Source: Bacteroidales bacterium
Lineage (GTDB): Bacteria > Bacteroidota > Bacteroidia > Bacteroidales > UBA932
Assembly: GCA_016291185.1 (NCBI GenBank)
Contig: JAEFAI010000019.1
Span: 1-41,849, forward strand
Length of the DNA: 41,849 bases
Reading direction: 5' to 3'
The translations under genes and the position numbers were made by a program. The notes beneath the pieces are model-generated. The model did not search any database, was not told the DNA's origin, and saw nothing but the letters and a program-made list of their open reading frames with translations. Within the stretch, counting starts at the first letter, position 1; the number at the start of each line of letters is the position of its first letter. Below, in pieces: positions 5,943-39,206 of the stretch.

Positions 5943-6021
5943 AATTATTCCACAATCAATTTTAGCCGGTCCCGCGGACGTTGATGATGCGGATGTGGGG
6001 ATCTTGGGCGAGGTGGCGGGA

Positions 6022-6082
6022 AGGCGGCAGGGTGCTGGCGGACGGGCATTTTGTTGCCCGGACGTCAGCAGCCCTGCCGCCT
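6022..6082. repeat. Long imperfect hairpin
   Basis: The left arm starts AGGCGGCAGGG at 6022 and ends GGGCA at 6048; the right arm starts TGCCC at 6055 and ends CCCTGCCGCCT at 6082. The arms pair over about 27 positions with a few mismatches around a 6-base loop. No T-tract follows on the plus strand, so it is not a plain terminator. Confidence 0.6.
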
Positions 6083-6091
6083 CCGCCGGAT

Positions 6092-6124
6092 AGAAAAAAG
6101 ATTCGCCGACGGAGGTCGGCGAAT
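6092..6124 (-). terminator. Hairpin with T-rich tail on the minus strand
   Basis: ATTCGCCGAC (6101-6110) pairs perfectly with GTCGGCGAAT (6115-6124) around GGAG. Read on the minus strand the stem is followed by CTTTTTTCTA. It lies 33 bases beyond the stop of the kinase fragment at 6158, so it may be the terminator of the gene that once stood here. Its stem also resembles the ATTCGCCGG palindromes at 16078 and 16450. Confidence 0.55.
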
Positions 6125-6157
6125 AATGGATTACAGGAGGGATGGGCAGGGGAAGAC

Positions 6158-6316
6158 CTACAGCAGCCCGGCTTTGCGGCCGAAGTCGACGATGATGTCT
6201 ACGCAGCCCTTGAGGCCGACGAGCGAGGAGTCGAGGCAGAGGTCGTAGTTCGCGGCGATGCCCCAGTTGCCGAGCGTGAAGAAGTTGTAGTAGTCCCGGC
6301 GCGCACGCTCTTTCTT
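6158..6316 (-). pseudogene. 3' fragment of a cytidylate-kinase-like gene
   Basis: These 159 bases encode the last 52 codons plus the stop of a protein matching residues 153-204 of the intact gene at 9776-10390. The peptide differs at only 5 of 52 positions, and I count about 14 base differences in 159. Upstream of 6316 the similarity stops abruptly and the frame soon meets a TAG without a start codon, so no protein is expected. The stretch is in the same orientation as the intact gene. It lies 107 bases from repeat copy A, whose divergence from copy B (about 13 in 135) is similar, suggesting both arose in one duplication of the kinase 3' end and its flanking repeat. Confidence 0.88.
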
Positions 6317-6320
6317 AATA

Positions 6321-6362
6321 CCCGGGGTCGGCCGGTCGGCTGGTGCCGACTTCGCTTCGCTC
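6321..6362. repeat. 42-base motif shared with 20083-20124
   Basis: Both sites share CCCGGGG, CGGCCGGTC and GACTTCGCTTCGCTC in the same order and near-equal spacing. The second site lies inside the 199-bp element at 19980-20178, so this may be a remnant of a related element. Confidence 0.55.
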
Positions 6363-6423
6363 TAAAGCCACCGGTCGCGGGCCCTCACGCATCCTCCCCG
6401 CCGGCTGCCGCAAAACCGATTCC

Positions 6424-6558
6424 GGACAGGTGTCCACGAAATCGCCATTCTACGCGTTTTTTCTGGACACCTGTCGGCATTTTGGGCTGTTTTCGGCTGT
6501 TTTGCGGGGGAGGTGTCCACTTTTATTGCACCAGAGGCCGATTTTGTGGACACCTGTC
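6424..6558 (+). repeat. Four-box palindromic repeat, copy A (REP-like)
   Basis: Four boxes related to GGACAGGTGTCC lie at 6424-6435, 6465-6475, 6510-6518 and 6548-6558, alternating in orientation. Boxes 1 and 2 are separated by 29 bases, as are boxes 3 and 4, with about 34 bases between the pairs, so box centres lie about 40-43 bases apart. The whole 135 bp recurs in inverted orientation at 9609-9743 without any length difference and about 90 per cent identity by my count. Box 4 ends 12 bases before the -7 element of the second ECF operon, so a protein bound here could affect that promoter. Confidence 0.9.
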
Positions 6559-6570
6559 AAAAATAGTTGT

Positions 6571-6578
6571 TACATTTG
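6571..6578 (+). promoter_or_regulatory. -7 box for the second ECF operon
   Basis: TACATTTG matches TAnnTTTG and lies 28 bases before the ATG at 6606. No good -33 box is seen at the right distance; that position falls in box 4 of repeat copy A. A separate word, GTTATATAGA at 6591-6600, recurs at 15757-15766 before the third ECF operon. Confidence 0.5.
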
Positions 6579-6605
6579 AGTAGCGGCCGTGTTATATAGA
6601 GTAGG

Positions 6606-7085
6606 ATGGCAAACGATTTCCTGACTGATGCATTTATCAGGCTTCGGCAGAAGCTGAAGGGGATCTCCGTGCGCGTGCTGCCCGATCCGACCGGCGCCGA
6701 GGATATCCTGCAGGACAGCTTCGTGCGGCTCTGGCAAAAGCGGTATCCGCTGCAGTCCGAGCAGGAAGCCGAGGCCCTGCTGGCCCGGACGGTCCGGAAC
6801 GCCAGCCTGAATGAGCGGCGACGACGGCGCCCGGTCCCGCTGGAAGCGGATGTCGCGGAGGCGCCGCCCGACGTCGAAGACAGGGAGAAAGCCTACGCCG
6901 CCATGCATCGCAAGATCGAATCGGAACTGACAGAGACGCAGCGATACATCCTGGAAGAGAAGGAATACGGCGGGCGAACCCTGGAAGAAATAGCGCGGGA
7001 GCTCGGCATGGAGCCGGCCGCGGTGAGGATGCAACTCTCCCGCGCCCGCAAAACACTTAGAAACGCACTGAAAGATGACAGATAA
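6606..7085 (+). CDS. ECF-type RNA polymerase sigma factor (second cassette)
   Basis: This is a 159-residue ECF sigma factor. Region 2 (about 5-70) includes DPTGAEDILQDSFVRLWQKRYPLQ; region 4 (about 100-155) includes LTETQRYILEEKEYGGRTLEEIARELGMEPAAVRMQLSRARKTLR, with a clear helix-turn-helix. It would direct polymerase to a small regulon. It is the first gene of a tightly packed operon, with overlaps of 11 and 4 bases and then a 2-base gap: sigma factor, one-helix anti-sigma candidate, secreted protein, outer-membrane protein. The promoter region abuts repeat copy A. G+C content is clearly higher than in the first ECF cassette, closer to the bulk of the window. Confidence 0.93.
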   Translation: MANDFLTDAFIRLRQKLKGISVRVLPDPTGAEDILQDSFVRLWQKRYPLQSEQEAEALLARTVRNASLNERRRRRPVPLEADVAEAPPDVEDREKAYAAMHRKIESELTETQRYILEEKEYGGRTLEEIARELGMEPAAVRMQLSRARKTLRNALKDDR

Positions 7086-7491
7086 AGAGAAATATACAGC
7101 CTTGATGCAGCGCTACTGGGAGGCGGAGACCACGCCGGCCGAGGAGCGCCGGCTCGCCCGGTACGCCGCCCGGACGGACGACCCCGCGTTCGAAGAACTG
7201 CGGGGCGTGCTGGGCTACCTGTCCCTGGGCCGGGCGCAGACGTCCCGCCGGGCCCCGGCCCGCTGGGCGTATTCCTGCGCCGCCGTCGCGGCCGCCCTGG
7301 TCATCCTTCTCTCCGTCGGGTTGTTCCCCCGATTCAAGGGAGCGGAACGCGACGTGTGCGTCCGTTATTCTTACGGAGAGGCTTCTACCGACAGCGAGCA
7401 GATCATGGCGTCTGTGGATGCCTCGCTGGCGGACTTTTTTGCGGGCGAAACGCCCGCTGAAACAACCCTCATAGAAATGTTCCGGCGATGA
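7075..7491 (+). CDS. Probable anti-sigma factor with one membrane helix
   Basis: This 138-residue protein starts at an ATG inside the last codons of the sigma gene (11-base overlap), implying translational coupling. Its N-terminus (KYTALMQRYWEAETTPAEERRLARYAAR) has the RYWEAETTPAEE pattern common at the start of Bacteroidetes anti-sigma-like proteins. A single membrane helix spans about 62-82 (WAYSCAAVAAALVILLSVGLF), followed by a periplasmic tail of about 50 residues. It should bind the upstream ECF factor in the cytosol and sense the envelope. I see no FecR domain and no zinc-finger cysteines. The tail (DSEQIMASVDASLADFFAG) has no known sensor motif, so the signal is unknown. Confidence 0.75.
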   Translation: MTDKEKYTALMQRYWEAETTPAEERRLARYAARTDDPAFEELRGVLGYLSLGRAQTSRRAPARWAYSCAAVAAALVILLSVGLFPRFKGAERDVCVRYSYGEASTDSEQIMASVDASLADFFAGETPAETTLIEMFRR

Positions 7492-7931
7492 AAAAGATAC
7501 TCCTTTGCATACTGGCGCTGCTCCTTTCCTCCGGAGCGGCCTTTGCCCAGCGGGGCCTGAGCTGCAACGCAATCTTTCGCGGGCGGGTCATCTCCTCCGA
7601 CCGCATGATCCGGACGGAAGTCCGCGGCAGCAGCATGACCACGTACAAACTGGATTTCTATCGCAGCGTCCAGTTCCAGGTCGATGAGAAAGAGGCGCTG
7701 GAGGTGGCTGCGTTGGTGAAAGCCGACGCAGATGCGGCGGTGTCCGCCGAGACGGAAGTGATCGGGAAATTGCTGACCTACGCCCTGATCCAGCCCGCCC
7801 AGCGGGGCAAGACCCACCGCTACCTCTGCTACCAGGCCCGTCCGGTCGGGCCTGCCTGGGTCATCACCATCCTGTACCTGGAGGGCACCGCCACCCTGGA
7901 AGATCTCCGTTCCATGTTCGACAAACAATAA
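7488..7931 (+). CDS. Secreted protein, DUF6108-like
   Basis: The 147-residue protein has a clean signal peptide (MKKILLCILALLLSSGAAFA, cleavage before QRGLS) and no lipobox. The mature part is a small alpha/beta domain: NAIFRGRVISSDRMIRTEVRGSSMTTYKLDFYRSVQF, then a helix rich in Ala/Asp/Glu, then HRYLCYQA and WVITILYLEGTATLEDLRSMF. The pattern of a charged R-G-x-x-M strand followed by TTYKLDFYRSV resembles small exported Bacteroidetes proteins that I recall as DUF6108; this label is tentative. It overlaps the anti-sigma gene by 4 bases (ATGA) and precedes the barrel gene by 2 bases, so all four are one transcript. A periplasmic role connected with the sigma system is likely but its nature is not visible. 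Confidence 0.6.
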   Translation: MKKILLCILALLLSSGAAFAQRGLSCNAIFRGRVISSDRMIRTEVRGSSMTTYKLDFYRSVQFQVDEKEALEVAALVKADADAAVSAETEVIGKLLTYALIQPAQRGKTHRYLCYQARPVGPAWVITILYLEGTATLEDLRSMFDKQ

Positions 7932-7933
7932 GC

Positions 7934-8536
7934 ATGATGAAATACTTGATATCGATCCTTTTCGCCCTTATGGTTTTCTTTCCCGCCGTCGCCCAGCAGG
8001 TCGACACGACTTCCACGGTGGTCGGCAATAAACTGGACTTTGAATCGCCCAACTTCGTGGCCAAGGATTATTTCGAGGAGGTCAAGGCGCACCTGTCGGC
8101 CGAGGGCCGCAAAAACTGGAAGCCGGAGTTCAGCGTCCGGGGCGTGGGAATGATTTACCATGAATCGATAACCCTGACCGGAGGCATCCGAACCAGTCCC
8201 AACAAGGTGTTTGGATTGGGCCTGGGACACAGTTTGGTGTTTTACGATGCCAATCCTGCCAAAGCATATAACATAGACTTCTTCCTTTATCACCGGCATT
8301 ACATCCCGCTGGACCGGAAACGCCGCTTTTCTATCTACAGTGACTTGATGGTCGGAGGGTCATATGTCTATAAGGCTTTTGGATATATCATTGACGGTGC
8401 TCCAGTGGCCGGGGTTTGCAGATGGTACTTCTCCTGGGAACCGGGGCTTTCCATCCGGCTATGGGGTAAGTCAAATCTTTTCCTTGGCCCAACTATCGGT
8501 CCGTCCATGGGCTTACACCTCGGCCTGGCGATCTGA
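7934..8536 (+). CDS. Exported outer-membrane beta-barrel-like protein
   Basis: A signal peptide (MMKYLISILFALMVFFPAVAQ) precedes about 180 residues of alternating hydrophobic and aromatic strands: VRGVGMIYHES, GFGL-type turns, HSLVFYDA, NIDFFLYHRHYIP, FSIYSDLMVGGSYV, YFSWEPGLSIRLWG, LFLGPTIGPSMGLHLGLAI. The glycine-rich paired strands and hydrophobic C-terminus suit a small outer-membrane barrel. It may be translated from 7934 or the next ATG at 7937. It is the last gene of the second ECF operon, so it may be an envelope product under that sigma factor. Its TGA stop (8534-8536) directly abuts the stop of the opposing transposase gene (8537-8539), leaving no room for a terminator between them. 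Confidence 0.7.
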   Translation: MMKYLISILFALMVFFPAVAQQVDTTSTVVGNKLDFESPNFVAKDYFEEVKAHLSAEGRKNWKPEFSVRGVGMIYHESITLTGGIRTSPNKVFGLGLGHSLVFYDANPAKAYNIDFFLYHRHYIPLDRKRRFSIYSDLMVGGSYVYKAFGYIIDGAPVAGVCRWYFSWEPGLSIRLWGKSNLFLGPTIGPSMGLHLGLAI

Positions 8537-9484
8537 TCAGAACCCGGCGGGATGATCCGCCAGTGCCAGGCAGCGAAGAAGCTGGGCGGCGGGGGCGTGA
8601 AAGCGCCGGGTCAGATCGCCGGCGATGCGGCGCCGCTGTTCGGCGGTCAGCTGATAGACGGAGATCCTGCCATAACTCCGGACATACTCTCTGTCGATGA
8701 CTTGGCATAGATCCATGTCCGAACGCTGCGACGGAGAATAGTTGTACCCCTTCTCGCTGGCGAGCATTTTCGCGATCGGCTCATATTGCGTGGCCTGCTC
8801 CATCGACTCGAGCGTGATTGGCGCATCGGAAACGCCGTCTTCCCGCTGCTCCCGCTGCCATCCCTCGCCGGACAGGCGACTCATATAATAATCGAAGCAG
8901 CGTGGTGTCCGATAGCAGTGCTCCACCCGCGCCAACTGCTCGAAAGAATTGCGGATCAGCATTCCATGTCGGTCCATCGCGAAGTGATCGGGGAACTCCG
9001 AGCGTCGCGGCAGGTGCCGGGCAATATCCCGCCGGGAGGTGATGACACCTTCCTGGGGAAGTTTTCCAAGTTCTTGGCAAAACAAATGGTTGGCCGAACA
9101 ATGGGGATAGCTGAACGGCGTAGCGCTCTGCCCGTGGTGCAGTCCGTTGCGGAGCACGTAACTGACGGCAGCCAGGATATGATTGCTGCCATCCAAGCGC
9201 AAGAGGAAATGACCGTCGTCAAACAGCGGACCGGTTCCCAGATGGCGATTCCGGTGGTACTTGGTGATGCGCATCTTCAGCGCGCGGCAAAAGCGGGTGA
9301 CCGCAGCCTCCTCGGCGAATGCAATACCGTGGATGTGGGTGGACATGATGGCGTCCGCCCAAAGTTCGACCTGACAAGCGAAGGCTTCGAGCGCCAAAAT
9401 ATTGGTGATGTTGCGGATGTCTTCGTCGTCCCGGAACAGGACCTCATCGTGGCAGGTGATGCAGAAGTGGTAAAGTTGTTTCAT
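8537..9484 (-). CDS. Y1-type (IS200-like/REP-associated) transposase
   Basis: This 315-residue protein carries the Y1 HUH endonuclease core. The HUH motif is HIH at 50-52 (MSTHIHGIAF). Next comes RFCRALKMRITKYHRN, the GTGPLFDDGHFLLRL strand, and the probable catalytic Tyr109 in SYVLRNGLHHG, which corresponds to the Y-x-x-x-N-P-x-x-A-G motif of REP-associated tyrosine transposases (RAYTs). About 180 further residues form a C-terminal extension without a recognised domain. Such enzymes nick single-stranded DNA at hairpin-forming sequences. No flanking IS200 hairpin ends are evident. Instead the paired four-box repeats at 6424-6558 and 9609-9743 lie around it, copy B only 125 bases upstream of its start, the layout expected for a RAYT and its REP substrate. 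The key residues are intact, so activity is possible. Confidence 0.85.
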   Translation of the reverse strand: MKQLYHFCITCHDEVLFRDDEDIRNITNILALEAFACQVELWADAIMSTHIHGIAFAEEAAVTRFCRALKMRITKYHRNRHLGTGPLFDDGHFLLRLDGSNHILAAVSYVLRNGLHHGQSATPFSYPHCSANHLFCQELGKLPQEGVITSRRDIARHLPRRSEFPDHFAMDRHGMLIRNSFEQLARVEHCYRTPRCFDYYMSRLSGEGWQREQREDGVSDAPITLESMEQATQYEPIAKMLASEKGYNYSPSQRSDMDLCQVIDREYVRSYGRISVYQLTAEQRRRIAGDLTRRFHAPAAQLLRCLALADHPAGF

Positions 9485-9608
9485 AGCATATACAATTTAC
9501 CATAAAGATGGGGCCATCCTGCGGGAAGTCCAAGGGATCGTAAGATTTGTCCTGAAGAAATTGTGAAATCTTAATGCCCGGCGGGAAAAGTGCCCGAATC
9601 CCGGGACG

Positions 9609-9743
9609 AACAGGTGTCCAGAAAATCGGCATTTGGTGCAATATAATTGGACACCTCCCCCGCAAATCGGGCGAAAACAGCCCAAAACACCGACAGGTGT
9701 CCAGAAAAAACGCGTAGAATGGCGATTTTGCGGACACCTGTCC
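9609..9743 (-). repeat. Four-box palindromic repeat, copy B (REP-like)
   Basis: This is the inverted counterpart of 6424-6558: boxes at 9611-9619, 9649-9657, 9692-9702 and 9732-9743, same length, about 13 differences in 135. It sits between the start of the Y1 transposase (9484) and the stop of the cytidylate-kinase-like gene (9776). The best conserved part is the 41 bases around the pair at 9692-9743, including the spacer with ACGCGTAGAATGGCGATTTT. The remainder of 9485-9775 shows no other gene. Confidence 0.9.
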
Positions 9744-9775
9744 GAGGTTCCGGGTCAAGCCCGGAATGTCCGGGG

Positions 9776-10390
9776 CTACAGCAGCCCGGCTTTGCGGCCG
9801 AAGTCGATGATGATGTCAACGCAGCCCTCGAGGCCGAGCAGCGAGGAGTCGAGGCAAAGGTCGTAGTTGGAAGCGACACCCCAGTTGCCCAGGGTGAAGA
9901 AGTTGTAGTAGTCCCGGCGCGCCCGCTCTTTCTTGACGATGAACTTCTCCGCTTCCTCGGCGCTCATCCCCGTTCGCGCGCAGACGCGGGCTACACGGTC
10001 CTCCATCGGCGCACAGATGAACACGTCCAGGCACTCCATGTCGCGCAGGACGTAGTTCGAAGCGCGTCCCAGGAAGATGGCGCTGCCCTGCTGCGCGATA
10101 CTGCGGATAGCATCGCTCTGATACTTGAAGAGCTCGGTCTCGTCGATTCCCGAAGGGGCGTACGAGCTGGCACGGTTCAGGCCGAACAGCGATCCGAAGC
10201 GGAAGAGACGGCGCTTCTCGTCATTCTTCCTGAAAAAGGCCGGGCTGAAACCGCTCTCGGCAGCCGCTTTCTGCAGGAGTTCGTTGTCATAGACCGGGAT
10301 GCCCAGGCGCTTGCCGAGCAGGTCGGCGACGCCCTTGCCACCGGCGCCGAACTGGCGCCCGATGTTGATCAGGATGTGCTTCTCGTCCAT
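9776..10390 (-). CDS. Cytidylate-kinase-like family protein
   Basis: I start this at the ATG ending at 10390 (204 residues, MDEKHILINIGRQFGAGGKGVADLLGKRLGIPVYDNELLQKAA). It is typical of the cytidylate-kinase-like family (Cytidylate_kin2): a degenerate P-loop (GRQFGAGGKGVA) replacing the usual GxxGxGKS/T, then FLGRASNYVLRD, DVFICAPMEDRVARV and a C-terminal KKERARRDYYNFFT segment with the LID-like arginines. Members bind nucleotides, but the physiological substrate is not well established, so it should not be called cmk. It is the last gene of a minus-strand operon, 4 bases after the MATE transporter stop. A truncated duplicate of its last 52 codons lies at 6158-6316. Confidence 0.85.
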   Translation of the reverse strand: MDEKHILINIGRQFGAGGKGVADLLGKRLGIPVYDNELLQKAAAESGFSPAFFRKNDEKRRLFRFGSLFGLNRASSYAPSGIDETELFKYQSDAIRSIAQQGSAIFLGRASNYVLRDMECLDVFICAPMEDRVARVCARTGMSAEEAEKFIVKKERARRDYYNFFTLGNWGVASNYDLCLDSSLLGLEGCVDIIIDFGRKAGLL

Positions 10391-34619: not shown

Positions 34620-37355
34620 ATGGATTACGATTTCAAATCGATTGAGAGCAAGTGGCAGGCCCGCTGGGCCGCGAACAAGACTTTCCGCGTGGTGGAAGAT
34701 CCCGCGAAGCCGAAATTTTATGTGTTGGACATGTTCCCCTATCCGTCCGGCGCCGGACTGCACGTGGGACACCCGCTGGGCTACATCGCCAGCGATATCT
34801 TCTCGCGCTACAAGCGCCTGAAGGGCTTCAATGTGCTGCACCCGATGGGCTACGACGCCTTCGGTCTGCCGGCCGAGCAGTACGCCATCCAGACGGGCCA
34901 GCACCCGGAGGTGACGACGGAGAAAAACGTGACCCGCTACCGCGAGCAGCTGGACCGCATCGGCTTCTCCTACGACTGGGACCGCGAAGTCCGCACCTGC
35001 GACCCTGCGTTCTACAAGTGGACGCAGTGGGCTTTCCTGCAGATGTTTGAGAGCTGGTATGACCCGACGCTGGACAAGGCGCGCCCCATCTCTGAGCTGA
35101 TTGCGAAATTCGAGACCACCGGCTACGAGGATGTGACCCCCGCACAGTGGAAAGCCGCTTCCGACAAGGAGAAATCGGACATCCTGATGCGCTACCGCAT
35201 TGCCTACCAGGGCGAGACCTCCGTCAACTGGTGCGAGGGTCTCGGCACCGTGCTGGCCAACGACGAGGTCAAGGACGGCCTGAGCGTGCGCGGCGGCTAT
35301 CCCGTGGAGCAGAAGAAGATGACGCAGTGGCAACTGCGCGTGTCGGCCTACGCCGGGCGCCTGCTGGACTCGCTCGAGAAGCTCGACTGGTCCGACTCCC
35401 TGAAGGAGATGCAGCGCAACTGGATCGGCCGTTCCGAAGGTACGGAGATGGTGTTCAACACGATCTGCGACGGTCGCGAGATGCCTGTGACCATCTTCAC
35501 CACCCGCGCCGACACGATCTACGGCGTGACCTTCATGGTCCTTGCCCCGGAGAGTGAACTGGTGGAGTCGCTGACCGCCGCCGACCGCAAGGCCGAGGTG
35601 GCGGAGTACCTCAAATACGTGAAGAAGAAGACGGAGCGCGAGCGCATCGCCGAGACCAAGACGGTCACGGGTGTGTTCTCCGGCTCCTACGGCATCAATC
35701 CCGTGACCGGCGAGAAGGTCCCCATCTGGATCTCCGAATACGTCCTCGCGGGCTACGGCACCGGCGCCATCATGGCCGTCCCGGCCCACGACAGCCGCGA
35801 CTACGCTTTCGCGAAGAAATTCAACCTGCCGATCATCCCGCTCATCGAGGGTTGTGATGTCTCGGAGGAGAGCTTCGACGCCAAGGACGGCATCATGTGC
35901 AACTCCGGCTTCCTGAACGGCATGACCGTCAAGCAGGCCATCGAGGCCGCCAAGGACTACGTCGAGGCGAAGGGCCTGGGCCGCCGCAAGACCAACTACC
36001 GTCTGCGCGACGCCATTTTCTCGCGCCAGCGCTACTGGGGCGAGCCTTTCCCGATCTGCTACAAGGACGGCATTCCGACCCCGCTGCCGCTCTCTGCGCT
36101 GCCGCTGCGCCTGCCGGAGATCGACTCCTACAAACCTTCGCCGGACGGCGAACCGCCGCTCGCCCGCGCCAAGGACTGGACCTGGGACGGCTGCCCGCTC
36201 GAGAAGAGCACGATGCCGGGCTTTGCCGGCTCCAGCGCCTACTATCTCCGCTACATGGATCCGCACAACGACGGCGCCCTCGTGAGCCGCGAGGCTGACG
36301 AGTACTGGCGCAACGTCGATCTATATATCGGCGGCACCGAGCACGCCACGGGCCACCTCATCTATTCCCGATTCTGGAACAAGTTCCTCTTCGACCTCGG
36401 CTATGTCTGCGAGGACGAGCCGTTCAAGAAGCTCATCAACCAGGGCATGATCCAGGGCCGGTCCAACTTCGTCTATCGGGTGGTGGGTACCAACACCTTC
36501 GTCTCCCTGGGCCTCAAGGACCAGTACGAGACCACCGAGATCCACGTGGACATCAACATCGTTCGCAATGACCGCCTCGACCTGGAGGCCTTCCGTGCCT
36601 GGCGTCCCGAATTCGCCGACGCGCAGTTCATCCTCGAGGACGGCGAATACATCTGCGGCTGGGCCGTGGAGAAGATGAGCAAGTCGATGTTCAACGTCGT
36701 CAACCCGGACATGATCTGCGATACCTACGGTGCCGACACGCTCCGCCTCTACGAGATGTTCCTCGGCCCGCTCGAGCAGAGCAAGCCCTGGGACACCAAG
36801 GGCATCGACGGCGTGTCCCGCTTCCTCAAGAAATTCTGGCGCCTCTACACCGACCGCGACGGTTTCGCCGTCACGGACGAGAAGGCCTCGCCCGCTGAGC
36901 TGAAGGTCCTGCACCGCCTGATCGGCAAGGAGCAGGAGGACATCGAGAACTTCTCCTTCAACACGACCATCAGCGCCTTCATGATCGCCGTCAACGAGCT
37001 GTCGGCCCTCAATTGCCGCAAGCGCGAGATCCTCGAGCCGCTTTGTGTGCTCCTCTCGCCGTTCGCTCCGCATATCGCCGAGGAGCTCTGGGAGCAGCTC
37101 GGCCACGCCGAGAGCATCACTTCCGCGAGCTTCCCGACCTTCAATGCCGCCTATACGGTGGAAGACAGCGTGACCTATCCGGTCCAGTTCAACGGCAAGA
37201 TGCGCTTCACCGTGGACCTGCCGAAGAGCGCCGCACCCGCCGAAGTTGAGGCGGCCGTGCGCGGGATGGAACAGACCGCCAAGTGGGTGGGCGACCAGCA
37301 GATTGCCAAGGTCGTGGTCGTGCCCGGACGTATCATCAACATCGTTGTGAAATGA
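34620..37355 (+). CDS. leuS: Leucyl-tRNA synthetase
   Basis: The 911-residue protein is a class I aminoacyl-tRNA synthetase charging tRNA-Leu. The HIGH motif is HVGH at 48-51 ([14 protein letters not shown]) and KMSKS lies at 685-689 ([13 protein letters not shown]). The CP1 editing domain has [21 protein letters not shown] and [23 protein letters not shown], so proofreading of mischarged tRNA is expected. The anticodon-binding domain (about 740-870) and C-terminal domain ([24 protein letters not shown]) are present. A Bacteroidetes-type insertion (about 640-670, [18 protein letters not shown]) precedes KMSKS. The start lies 1 base after the TonB-fusion stop, and its TGA overlaps the next ATG (ATGA), making it the core of a four- or five-gene transcript. 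Confidence 0.97.
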
Positions 37356-38281
37356 CGCGCAAGGCCGTTCTCCATACTGTCTGGGAGTATCTCATCCTGA
37401 CCGTCGCGTGCTTCATCTTCGCGATGGCCTGGGAGTGCTTCATGATCCCCAACGGGATGTCGGCCGGCGGCCTGATGGGCCTTTCGACCATCATCCAGTA
37501 TGCGACCGGCGGTGTGGTTCCGGCCCAATATACCTATTTCGCCATCAATGCCGTGCTGATCATCGTCGCCGTGTGGGCGATGGGGATCGGCTTCGGCTTC
37601 AAGACCATCTGGTGTATCATCTTCTCCAGTATCGCGATGCATATCGTGGCCGGCCTGCCGGTCATGCACGCCATCCCCGGCTCCTTCTTCAATATGGAAG
37701 AGCGCCTGCTGATCCCGGTCGTGGCCGGCGTGTTCGAATCGGTCGGTCTGGGGCTCGTGCTCCGCTACGGCGGCAGTACGGGCGGTACGGACATCATCGC
37801 CCTGATGGTCAATAAATACTGGCCCGTCTCGCTCGGGACCGTCTTCCTGGTGTCCGACGTGGTGGTCTGCGCCCTGTTGCTCTGTCTGCCGGAGAAGAAT
37901 TTCTCCGACATGTGCTACGGTCTGACGGAAGTGGTCATCTTCTCGATGGTCATCGACCTGGTCGTGGGCGGCAAGCGCTCGTCCTACCAGCTGCTGGTCT
38001 TCTCGGAGCACTATGACAAGATCGCCGACCACATCATCAACAAGATGGATCGCGGCGTGACGGTGCTCAAGGCCCAGGGCTGGTTCACCAAGGCCGACAA
38101 GAACGTGCTGCTGATCCTGATCAACCAGACGCAGCTCTCCGGTCTTTCGCAGGTTATCAAGGAGATCGATCCCCGTGCCTTCATGTCCATTTCCCCGACG
38201 CACAACGTTTACGGCGAGGGCTTTGAGGAGATCAAGACGGGCGTTCATCTGAAAAAGAAACATAAACATAAACATGAATAG
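37352..38281 (+). CDS. YitT family membrane protein (first of two)
   Basis: I start this at the ATG at 37352, which overlaps the leuS stop by 4 bases (309 residues); the longer frame upstream is within leuS. Five to six membrane helices include [28 protein letters not shown], the YitT motif (F-x-x-P-x-x-x-x-x-G-G-x-x-G), and [23 protein letters not shown], the second conserved loop. A C-terminal DUF2179 domain (about 205-290, [43 protein letters not shown]) folds like an ACT/PII-type domain. It ends in a His/Lys tail (KKKHKHKHE). The family's transport substrate is unknown. It is one of a tandem pair with the next gene, which it overlaps by 8 bases. Confidence 0.9.
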
Positions 38282-39206
38282 CAAGCAATTCTGGGTCGGG
38301 GTGAAGGAGTACTTCCTGATCACCCTCGGCGTGACGATGTACGTGATGGGATGGATCATCTTCCTGATCCCGAACAATATGATCGGCGGTGGCGTGACGG
38401 GTCTCGGCTCCATCGTCCAGTACGCAACCAACGGCGTTGTCAAGATCGGTTACACCTATTTCGTGGTCAACGCGGGCCTGCTCGTCGCGGCGCTCTTCAC
38501 GCTGGGGCGCAGTTTCGGCGCCAAGTCGATCTACGCCATTCTGCTGACTTCGGTCCTGCTCAATGCCGCGCAGGGCATTTTCCCCGAGCAGATCATCCAG
38601 ACCCTCGCGCTGGACAACGGCAAGCTCATGTGTACCATCATGGGCGGCATCATGGTCGGTATCGGCATCGGCATTTCGATGTCGCAAGGCGGCAGTACGG
38701 GCGGCACGGACATCATCGCCCTGATCGTGAACAAATACCGGAATGTCTCGCCGGGGCGCATGATTCTCATCCTGGACGCCGTCATCATCCTGTCCTCGCT
38801 GCTCGTGCCTTCCTATATGGCGGACGGCACGCTGATGAGCTGGCCGGACAAGATTACGACCGTTGTCTATGGTTTCATCCTGATCACGATCGTGAGCACG
38901 GTGCTGGACCTTTACCTGACGGGTTCCCGGCAGTCCGTGCAGATTTTTGTCCTCTCGCCGAAGTTCGCCGAGATCGCGGATGCGATTACCAACGAGTTGC
39001 ATCGCGGCGTGACCGTCTTCAACGGCAAGGGTTGGTACACCAAGCACGACACCGAAGTGGTGATGGTCATCACCCGCAAGGCAGACTTGAACGTCTTCCT
39101 GAAATGCATCAATTCCATCGATCCGAACGCTTTTATCTCCGTTTCCTCGGTTACAGGCGTTTATGGACAGGGTTTTGATAAGTTCAAATCAAGCAATAAA
39201 AAATAA
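38274..39206 (+). CDS. YitT family membrane protein (second of two)
   Basis: This 310-residue protein is a paralogue of its upstream neighbour, with the same order of helices and a DUF2179 domain. The first conserved loop reads FLIPNNMIGGGVTGLGSIVQYATNG and the second [25 protein letters not shown]; the C-terminal domain contains VFNGKGWYTKHDTEVVMVITRKADLNVFLKCINSIDPNAFISV. It differs by lacking the His/Lys tail and by a longer loop near 180 (VPSYMADGTLMSWPDK). The start overlaps the upstream gene by 8 bases, indicating coupled translation and possibly a hetero-oligomer. A strong terminator follows at 39239-39274. Confidence 0.9.
   Translation: MNSKQFWVGVKEYFLITLGVTMYVMGWIIFLIPNNMIGGGVTGLGSIVQYATNGVVKIGYTYFVVNAGLLVAALFTLGRSFGAKSIYAILLTSVLLNAAQGIFPEQIIQTLALDNGKLMCTIMGGIMVGIGIGISMSQGGSTGGTDIIALIVNKYRNVSPGRMILILDAVIILSSLLVPSYMADGTLMSWPDKITTVVYGFILITIVSTVLDLYLTGSRQSVQIFVLSPKFAEIADAITNELHRGVTVFNGKGWYTKHDTEVVMVITRKADLNVFLKCINSIDPNAFISVSSVTGVYGQGFDKFKSSNKK

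Follow-up and report, generated by a model that had tools for sequence, protein, structure and literature searches.

This locus raises the question of what ties two inverted copies of a repeat to the Y1 transposase gene that lies between them. It is found in a contig of a gut Bacteroidales bacterium (GCA_016291185.1, contig JAEFAI010000019.1, positions 1-41,849; these 41,849 nt are called the window here) that looks like part of an ordinary bacterial chromosome, with genes for gyrase A, leucyl-tRNA synthetase, and a release factor. A preliminary description had offered two readings, a double REPIN-like unit linked to a Y1 enzyme of Bacteroidales or a transposase that merely adjoins the array. 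Comparison with relatives supports the former and disfavors the latter: arrays of the same layout stand beside the gene for the RAYT-like enzyme in most related loci, and their boxes follow RAYT similarity. At roughly two chances in three, we consider that the Y1 gene makes up, with its two arrays, a REPtron-like system in which the RAYT reads its own box, assembles on a phased array of four sites, and can mobilize that array.

Two four-box arrays around a RAYT-type gene

The arrays and the gene have the following coordinates in the window.

6423..6557, + strand: array A, four boxes (module 1, center, module 2), from ungapped alignment with 40 other arrays
6424-6435 and 6465-6476, + strand: boxes of array A module 1
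6507-6518 and 6548-6559, + strand: boxes of array A module 2
9610..9744, - strand: array B, inverted copy of array A, 125 bp upstream of the RAYT gene
9608-9619, 9649-9660, 9691-9702, and 9732-9743, - strand: boxes of array B
8537..9484, - strand: RAYT-like Y1 HUH transposase gene, 315 aa
9329..9337, - strand: HUH motif codons H50-I51-H52 (context STHIHG), from sequence; H50 and H52 are invariant in 32 homologs
9158..9160, - strand: catalytic tyrosine codon Y109 (context YVLRNGLHHG), from sequence; invariant in 32 homologs
8540..8821, - strand: C-terminal helical region, residues 222-315, with a candidate helix-turn-helix at residues 281-310

The two arrays are inverted relative to each other, 135 nt long each, and identical at 123 of 135 bases without an indel, which bears out the equal length despite divergence that had been described. 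The rigid pattern AGGTGTCC-N29-GGACACCT-N38-AGGTGTCC-N29-GGACACCT, with AGGTGTCC at offsets +0 and +83 and GGACACCT at +37 and +120, matches exactly at 6428 and 9612, and 200 order-1 randomizations of the window yielded not even a single module. The 12-bp box alone (three mismatches or fewer) showed no excess in the window, with 51 matches versus 40.3 ± 7.2 in shuffles; what is overrepresented in the window is the array and not the lone 12-mer. Starts of the 12-bp boxes are spaced by 41, 42, and 41 bp in both arrays, near the four helical turns first proposed, an observation that extends across the family to the quantized period reported below. The box is near-palindromic in the window, as had been noted. 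Palindromy as the essential unit was ruled out, because relatives carry non-palindromic boxes, and the conserved feature is an inverted pair of boxes, present twice at a fixed spacing. Many arrays have a GGGGGAGG stretch before box 3. The region from 6000 to 10200 gave no Rfam match near a gathering score. Among viral contigs, 10 stretches fitted a pattern, none of them a relative, and plasmids gave one chance DNA match and no protein match.

The gene between the arrays encodes an enzyme of the RAYT (TnpA_REP) type with H50, H52, and Y109 in place, and its distance from array B is as originally reported; array B has the same placement relative to the RAYT in loci L001 and L002. The claim that this is the only transposase of the window holds for the 40 open reading frames (ORFs) scanned with Pfam, which included no second one; the window has 145 ORFs of at least 80 aa. 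RAYT homologs are mostly 304-315 aa long with THxH and YVLRNGLHH motifs. Among 32 of them, the first residues of the HUH motif are TH in 31 and NH in 1, positions +4/+5 of the Y motif are NG in 24, NA in 5, QG in 2, and NP in 1, and HH at +7/+8 is present in 31, with a gap in the other. The RAYT had no Bac_DnaA_C or HTH match in Pfam and no match in PADLOC, which gave a weak match for the neighboring sigma factor. Genome G001 has one RAYT 95% identical to that of the window plus three weaker matches.

Arrays beside RAYT genes and their dispersed copies

A homolog search gave 94 proteins, and a scan of genome contigs gave 159 relatives, of which the best 80, many from rumen and gut, were kept as loci; all are titled Bacteroidales, Bacteroidia, Bacteroidaceae, or (two) Candidatus Colenecus. 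Loci L001 to L005 (RAYT identities of 95, 91, 76, 72, and 69%) have the same box as the window beside the RAYT, and L006 (71%), L007, and L008 carry AGGTCTCC, AGATTTACA, and AGGTGAACA, respectively, in the same frame. Because these three loci carry other boxes, we used a box-blind scan for two inverted 9-mer pairs with similar boxes, in which no box sequence is assumed. In 64 of the 80 loci it detected a total of 88 arrays no more than 600 bp from the RAYT (0.93 per kb), and 28 arrays lay farther away (0.039 per kb), a 24-fold-higher density near the RAYT; the shuffled control contained one array in 0.89 Mb. Of the farther arrays, 26 come from loci that also have a near one, whose box recurs in 21 of the 26. 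When upstream and downstream flanks were compared by BLAST, a shared repeat was found in 52 of 78 loci versus 1 of 114 control pairs. It was direct in 49 loci and inverted in 3 (the arrays are partly self-complementary, and orientation is that of the best hit); inverted copies, as in the window, are exceptional in the family. In further sets, 22 of 29 RAYT loci and 11 of 20 had arrays, as did 9 of 20 loci of Y1 relatives at only 22 to 31% identity.

Box and enzyme change together. Over 61 loci (L025, L041, L048, and L051 were excluded from this comparison and from the table of module spans), box similarity rose with the identity of the RAYTs (Mantel rho = 0.48; P = 0.002, the lowest value that 500 permutations allow). 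Boxes were unrelated in RAYT pairs below 50% identity (mean similarity of 0.46 to 0.50), had a similarity of 0.65 to 0.73 in pairs of 50 to 80% identity, and reached 0.92 in the 19 pairs above 80%. With overall identity removed, the residues that best track box identity were R161, R151, F164, R72, C196, S243, and M71, which may serve as a lead to the residues that read the box rather than as a mapping of them.

The exact module of the window was present in 6 of 50 RAYT-bearing genomes (13, 10, 4, 4, 9, and 1 copies). These are the genomes of L001 to L006 and exactly those with the closest RAYTs; in G006, the sole exact match is a lone module, and the two arrays carry a changed box. In a family sample of 149 genomes, 73 of which have some RAYT relative, the module was found in G001 itself and was absent from the other 148. 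Copies in the genomes of relatives thus confirm that the repeat extends beyond its two sites in the window, and none of the sampled genomes that lack a similar RAYT contained it, with descent as a confounder that is weighed below. Two other exact box patterns were each found in only one of the 50 genomes.

By our own count from the match table and the array sequences, G001 to G006 hold 42 full arrays (13, 6, 5, 4, 12, and 2) plus a few partial ones. Including the two of the window, there are 44; without L143, L145, and L152, whose center could not be oriented, and without partial arrays, 41 oriented arrays remain, and these align without any indel. Identity across 12 arrays of G001 is near 1.0 in the outer boxes and about 0.25, the level of chance, at both edges. 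In G005, the similarity continues into about 10 bases to the left of the array and into patches to its right. Such alignments indicate that the dispersed unit in the lineage of the window is the whole 134-bp array. Several arrays occupy the same site in G001 and G002.

Some arrays have additional features. Six arrays of G005 (L136, L138, L139, L146, L153, and L160) have 80 to 270 bp of flank in common beyond the array and, at the left edge, a ATCCCATTCC-like stretch, which gives the impression that a longer unit spread there. The right flank of L140 in G001 has an adjoining inverted pair with another box, of the GGTAGACGGTCC type, which is perhaps an array of another G001 RAYT. In L040 and L175, GCCGCGATTGCA arrays with periods of 83 and 106 bp are clustered over more than 1 kb downstream of the RAYT.

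Helical spacing and folding of the arrays

The spacing of modules was surveyed in 298 RAYT flanks from 149 loci (180 kb), with module distances of 25 to 150 bp allowed. The 141 arrays detected fall at 51-53 bp (12 arrays, a class that stems from the distant Y1 relatives), 71-74 bp (44), 82-84 bp (72), 93-96 bp (5), 104 bp (4), 114, 116, and 126 bp, and one at 35 bp; three shuffled sets gave one match. Loci duplicated between two collections are unmerged in these counts and merged in the cluster statistics, and the counts retain the 83-bp array of L043, which is AT-rich and looks spurious, and the 35-bp case of L262. The module-to-module distance is quantized at 5 and 7-12 times 10.4 bp with zero phase. 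With RAYTs clustered at 45, 50, 60, and 70% identity (7, 19, 40, and 54 clusters), the zero-phase fit was best at 10.35 to 10.40 bp. Compared with uniform periods of 45 to 130 bp, the fit had P = 3.5e-5 for the 7 clusters, and none of 200,000 simulations reached that observed for 19, 40, or 54 clusters.

Parsimony on a quick tree of 149 of 150 RAYTs (one shorter than 250 aa was excluded) gave 14 changes of turn class, and the series is therefore not one ancestral length. Relative to 8-turn arrays, 7-turn arrays have a module about 11 bp shorter and the same center (55 and 24 arrays), and 9-turn arrays have a center about 10 bp longer (4 arrays), which shows that the steps arose in different parts. 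This helical series is the surprising part of a system that is real and widespread.

Predicted with DNA energies, 31 distinct arrays fold as one long hairpin in 19 cases, as two hairpins in 11, and otherwise in 1. Covariation was tried as a means of deciding between one long and two hairpins and held little signal; the clearest columns pair box 2 with box 3, and other pairing axes score as well by covariation count. Among the distant Y1 relatives (L230 to L249), the arrays of the 9 of 20 loci that have them are compact, with a 51- to 53-bp period of five turns and still other boxes.

Mechanism, rival explanations, and known systems

In the mechanism that we favor, a RAYT-type HUH enzyme would recognize its own box of about 12 to 13 bp. 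Four boxes in two inverted pairs at whole helical turns would line up the binding sites along one face of the double helix and let several RAYT subunits form one complex. Candidate box readers are the helix-turn-helix-like region at the C terminus and a helix near residues 71-75. Where the array becomes single-stranded, in a cruciform or on the lagging strand, the inverted pairs could fold into hairpins that the HUH tyrosine cuts and rejoins, by which the whole 134-bp array would be copied or moved within the genome. Regulation of the RAYT gene may be a further role of the array that lies upstream of it. Comparison of sequences shows the association, the co-diversification of box and RAYT, the whole array as dispersal unit in the lineage of the window, the rigid and quantized spacing, and the RAYT fold; direct binding, multimeric assembly on double-stranded DNA, cleavage, transposition, and autoregulation would be the steps that the mechanism adds. 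The chances seem to us about even for the broader proposition that a widespread Bacteroidales branch of RAYT-like HUH enzymes couples duplex recognition to single-strand chemistry, with boxes that diversify fast while the layout and the whole-turn rule (5-12 turns per module) are kept. Some 60 box-enzyme pairs in one layout offer a direct way to read the RAYT recognition code, the helical quantization predicts an assembly step on duplex DNA, and the system accounts for a group of rigid intergenic repeats found in uncultured Bacteroidales of gut and rumen.

The space between the arrays also holds an operon.

6606..8536, + strand: accessory operon between the arrays, together with the RAYT gene, comprising an ECF sigma factor (6606-7085), a 138-aa ORF, a DUF6108 protein, and a 200-aa ORF

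Differing identities and layouts among relatives show that the window locus is a mosaic, compatible with local movement or recombination between arrays. Relative to L001, the RAYT is 94.9% identical, the stretch from the RAYT to array B 99.2%, and neighboring genes 78 to 92%; relative to L002, the RAYT is 88.5% identical, and array A matches the RAYT-proximal array of L002 at 98.5% over 131 bases. The operon is in the same place in G002, where a single copy was found, at 98% identity (97.8% versus L002), while nearby genes are at 79 to 93%. It had no match in G001, G005, or G006, the G001 layout being array-RAYT-array without the operon, and G004 has a relative of it (69%) at an unlinked place, on a contig that gave no array matches. 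The RAYTs of L003 and L006 are at the opposite end of a conserved block (11.9-17.7 kb in the window). The operon looks like a bystander.

Three other explanations bear on these data. The arrays might belong to an ordinary REPIN system in which they function solely in the folded, single-stranded state and the spacing series arose by chance through descent from a few founder arrays. The predicted hairpins agree with this, as do the use of single-stranded REP hairpins by known TnpA_REP enzymes (PMC8266576) and the intervening length described as critical in Pseudomonas REPINs (PMC3116915). Hairpin folding, however, offers no reason for a zero-phase quantization at about 10.4 bp that holds in RAYT clusters down to 45% identity and through repeated class changes on the tree, and compensatory changes are scarce; we regard this explanation as unlikely. 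Phasing would suit a protein that binds double-stranded DNA, and the arrays could be regulatory or structural sites (a RAYT operator, or sites bound by a terminator complex or by a nucleoid protein of the host) that the RAYT, as a domesticated DNA-binding protein, does not mobilize. Many loci have an array upstream of the RAYT, and several arrays are inherited at one site in G001 and G002; both would fit such sites, but a host protein is not expected to change its box along with the RAYT. Moreover, sharp-edged copies at unrelated sites and the mosaic RAYT neighborhood imply that something spreads the arrays, and static binding sites are in our judgment decidedly improbable. It is harder still to sustain the proposal that the arrays are terminal inverted repeats of one 3.3-kb, TIRtron-like transposon with the sigma-factor operon as cargo. 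Inverted arrays do enclose the operon and the RAYT in the window and G002, and the operon is 98% identical between them amid neighbors at 79 to 93%. Family-wide, however, 49 of 52 loci have their flanking copies in direct orientation, the arrays of G001 enclose the RAYT but no operon, G004 carries its operon relative on a contig that gave no array matches, and only one operon copy was found in G002.

The REPtron-like reading has evidence to contend with as well. The six array-rich genomes are relatives, and presence is therefore confounded with descent; copy numbers are low, and the two other box patterns have only 3 and 1 exact copies in their own genomes, one of them away from the RAYT. The scan found no near array in 16 of the 80 loci, and of the 15 of these re-examined by flank BLAST, 11 share repeats of 57 to 141 bp and 4 share none; yields were also lower in the third set and in the distant Y1 relatives. 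The sites common to G001 and G002 mean that movement is slow. When the flanks of four G001 arrays were compared with five genomes, no clean empty site or target duplication was found: the counterpart of L157 is lacking in G002 and G004, within a difference of about 915 bp, and the two flanks of L142 fall on separate G002 contigs. The C terminus matches DNA-binding folds weakly, and base-pair covariation within arrays is weak as well, with few compensatory changes. On the RAYT tree, 47 of 131 inner branches have less than 80% support, and 2 of the 14 class changes are on distrusted arrays (L043 and L262). Near-RAYT periods of 35 bp (L262), 96 bp (2.4 bp off), and 116 bp (1.6 bp off) depart from the helical series, as do farther arrays at 75, 80, 80, 85, and 106 bp; those at 75, 80, 80, and 85 bp do not have the box of the RAYT, and one at 106 bp does.

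In the literature searched, RAYTs are understood through single-stranded REP hairpins, mostly in Proteobacteria. REPtron or REPIN-RAYT systems (PMC3116915, PMC8266576) have in common with the system described here the RAYT/TnpA_REP fold, inverted repeat units that flank the gene and are also dispersed, a repeat type of its own for each RAYT, and a hairpin-capable unit of conserved length. Such units stand beside the transposase gene in 64 of 80 loci, and on both sides of it in 52 of 78, and a RAYT-specific dispersed repeat is found in the lineage of the window, with low exact counts in two other lineages. Here there are four boxes rather than two REPs, a period quantized to helical turns, and no conserved GTAG-type foot (GTAG or CTAC occurs anywhere in 26 of 41 window-lineage and 40 of 86 RAYT-near arrays). 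Genomes hold 2-13 full arrays versus hundreds of REPs in Pseudomonas, and the window enzyme is about twice as long as Escherichia coli TnpA_REP (165 residues, 4er8), with an extra helical C terminus.

TIRtron or TIRYT systems (PMC3733652; subclass 2.1 in PMC6006769) likewise combine a Y1 HUH enzyme with long non-REP flanking repeats, some double-palindromic, in moderate repeat families. Their repeats have a GGGGWSAS motif, and a C-terminal helix-turn-helix is reported for subclass 2.1 (PMC6006769). They differ in the tyrosine motif (YIELNP or Y[IV]HLNP versus YVLRNG here, where Pfam gave no Bac_DnaA_C or HTH match) and in inverted flanking repeats, which are found here in only 3 of 52 loci by best hit. 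Subclass 2.6 of TnpA_Y1 (Bertels group 5, Bacteroidetes; PMC6006769) also has Bacteroidetes hosts and atypical secondary structures beside the gene with copies elsewhere in the genome, but has a length of 179 and motifs NH[LIV]H and YIH[QN]NP, unlike the mostly 304- to 315-aa enzymes with THxH and YVLRNGLHH. Subclass 1.2 (Cyanobacteria, Bacteroidetes; PMC6006769) resembles the RAYTs here in HH at +7/+8 (YIKNQKEHH versus YVLRNGLHH) and in a subclass-specific C-terminal domain; it differs in length (148 versus 315 aa), in DH[IV]H versus TH, and in the absence of a reported REP, and its Y---Q--HH motif is not found here, with N instead of Q at +4 in 30 of 32 homologs. The class 2 motifs [ND]HxH and Y-x-x-x-N-P (PMC6006769) are likewise replaced by THIH and YVLRNG in the window. 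In contrast to IS200/IS605 (IS608, ISDra2), the fold is closer to TnpA_REP (14.1), and the repeats are dispersed independently of the gene. The literature searched on RAYT, REPIN, TIRYT, and TnpA_Y1 gave no description of four-box or helically phased arrays, although TIR and subclass 2.6 structures drawn in figures may resemble them. Because a conserved GTAG tag and the published Y and HUH motif sets are missing and the flanking copies are mostly direct, the system falls outside any named subclass. The layout that relatives share despite different boxes and the spacing in whole helical turns point to an undescribed branch of REP/RAYT mobile-repeat systems.

The surroundings of the arrays contain other repeats. 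A 159-bp copy of the 3' end of a cytidylate-kinase-like gene lies to the left of array A at 6158-6316, in direct orientation to the other copy at 9776-9934; it is 91% identical to the window's own gene and, with its downstream part (6060-6316), 97% identical to L001. A GC-rich, hairpin-like intergenic repeat at 6012-6124 is found beyond the arrays in L001 and L002 too, and similar stretches of 60 to 90 bp recur beside several arrays of G001, G002, and G006. Elsewhere in the window, two adjacent ORFs with an 8-bp overlap (37283-38281 and 38274-39206) both encode YitT-family membrane and DUF2179 domains.

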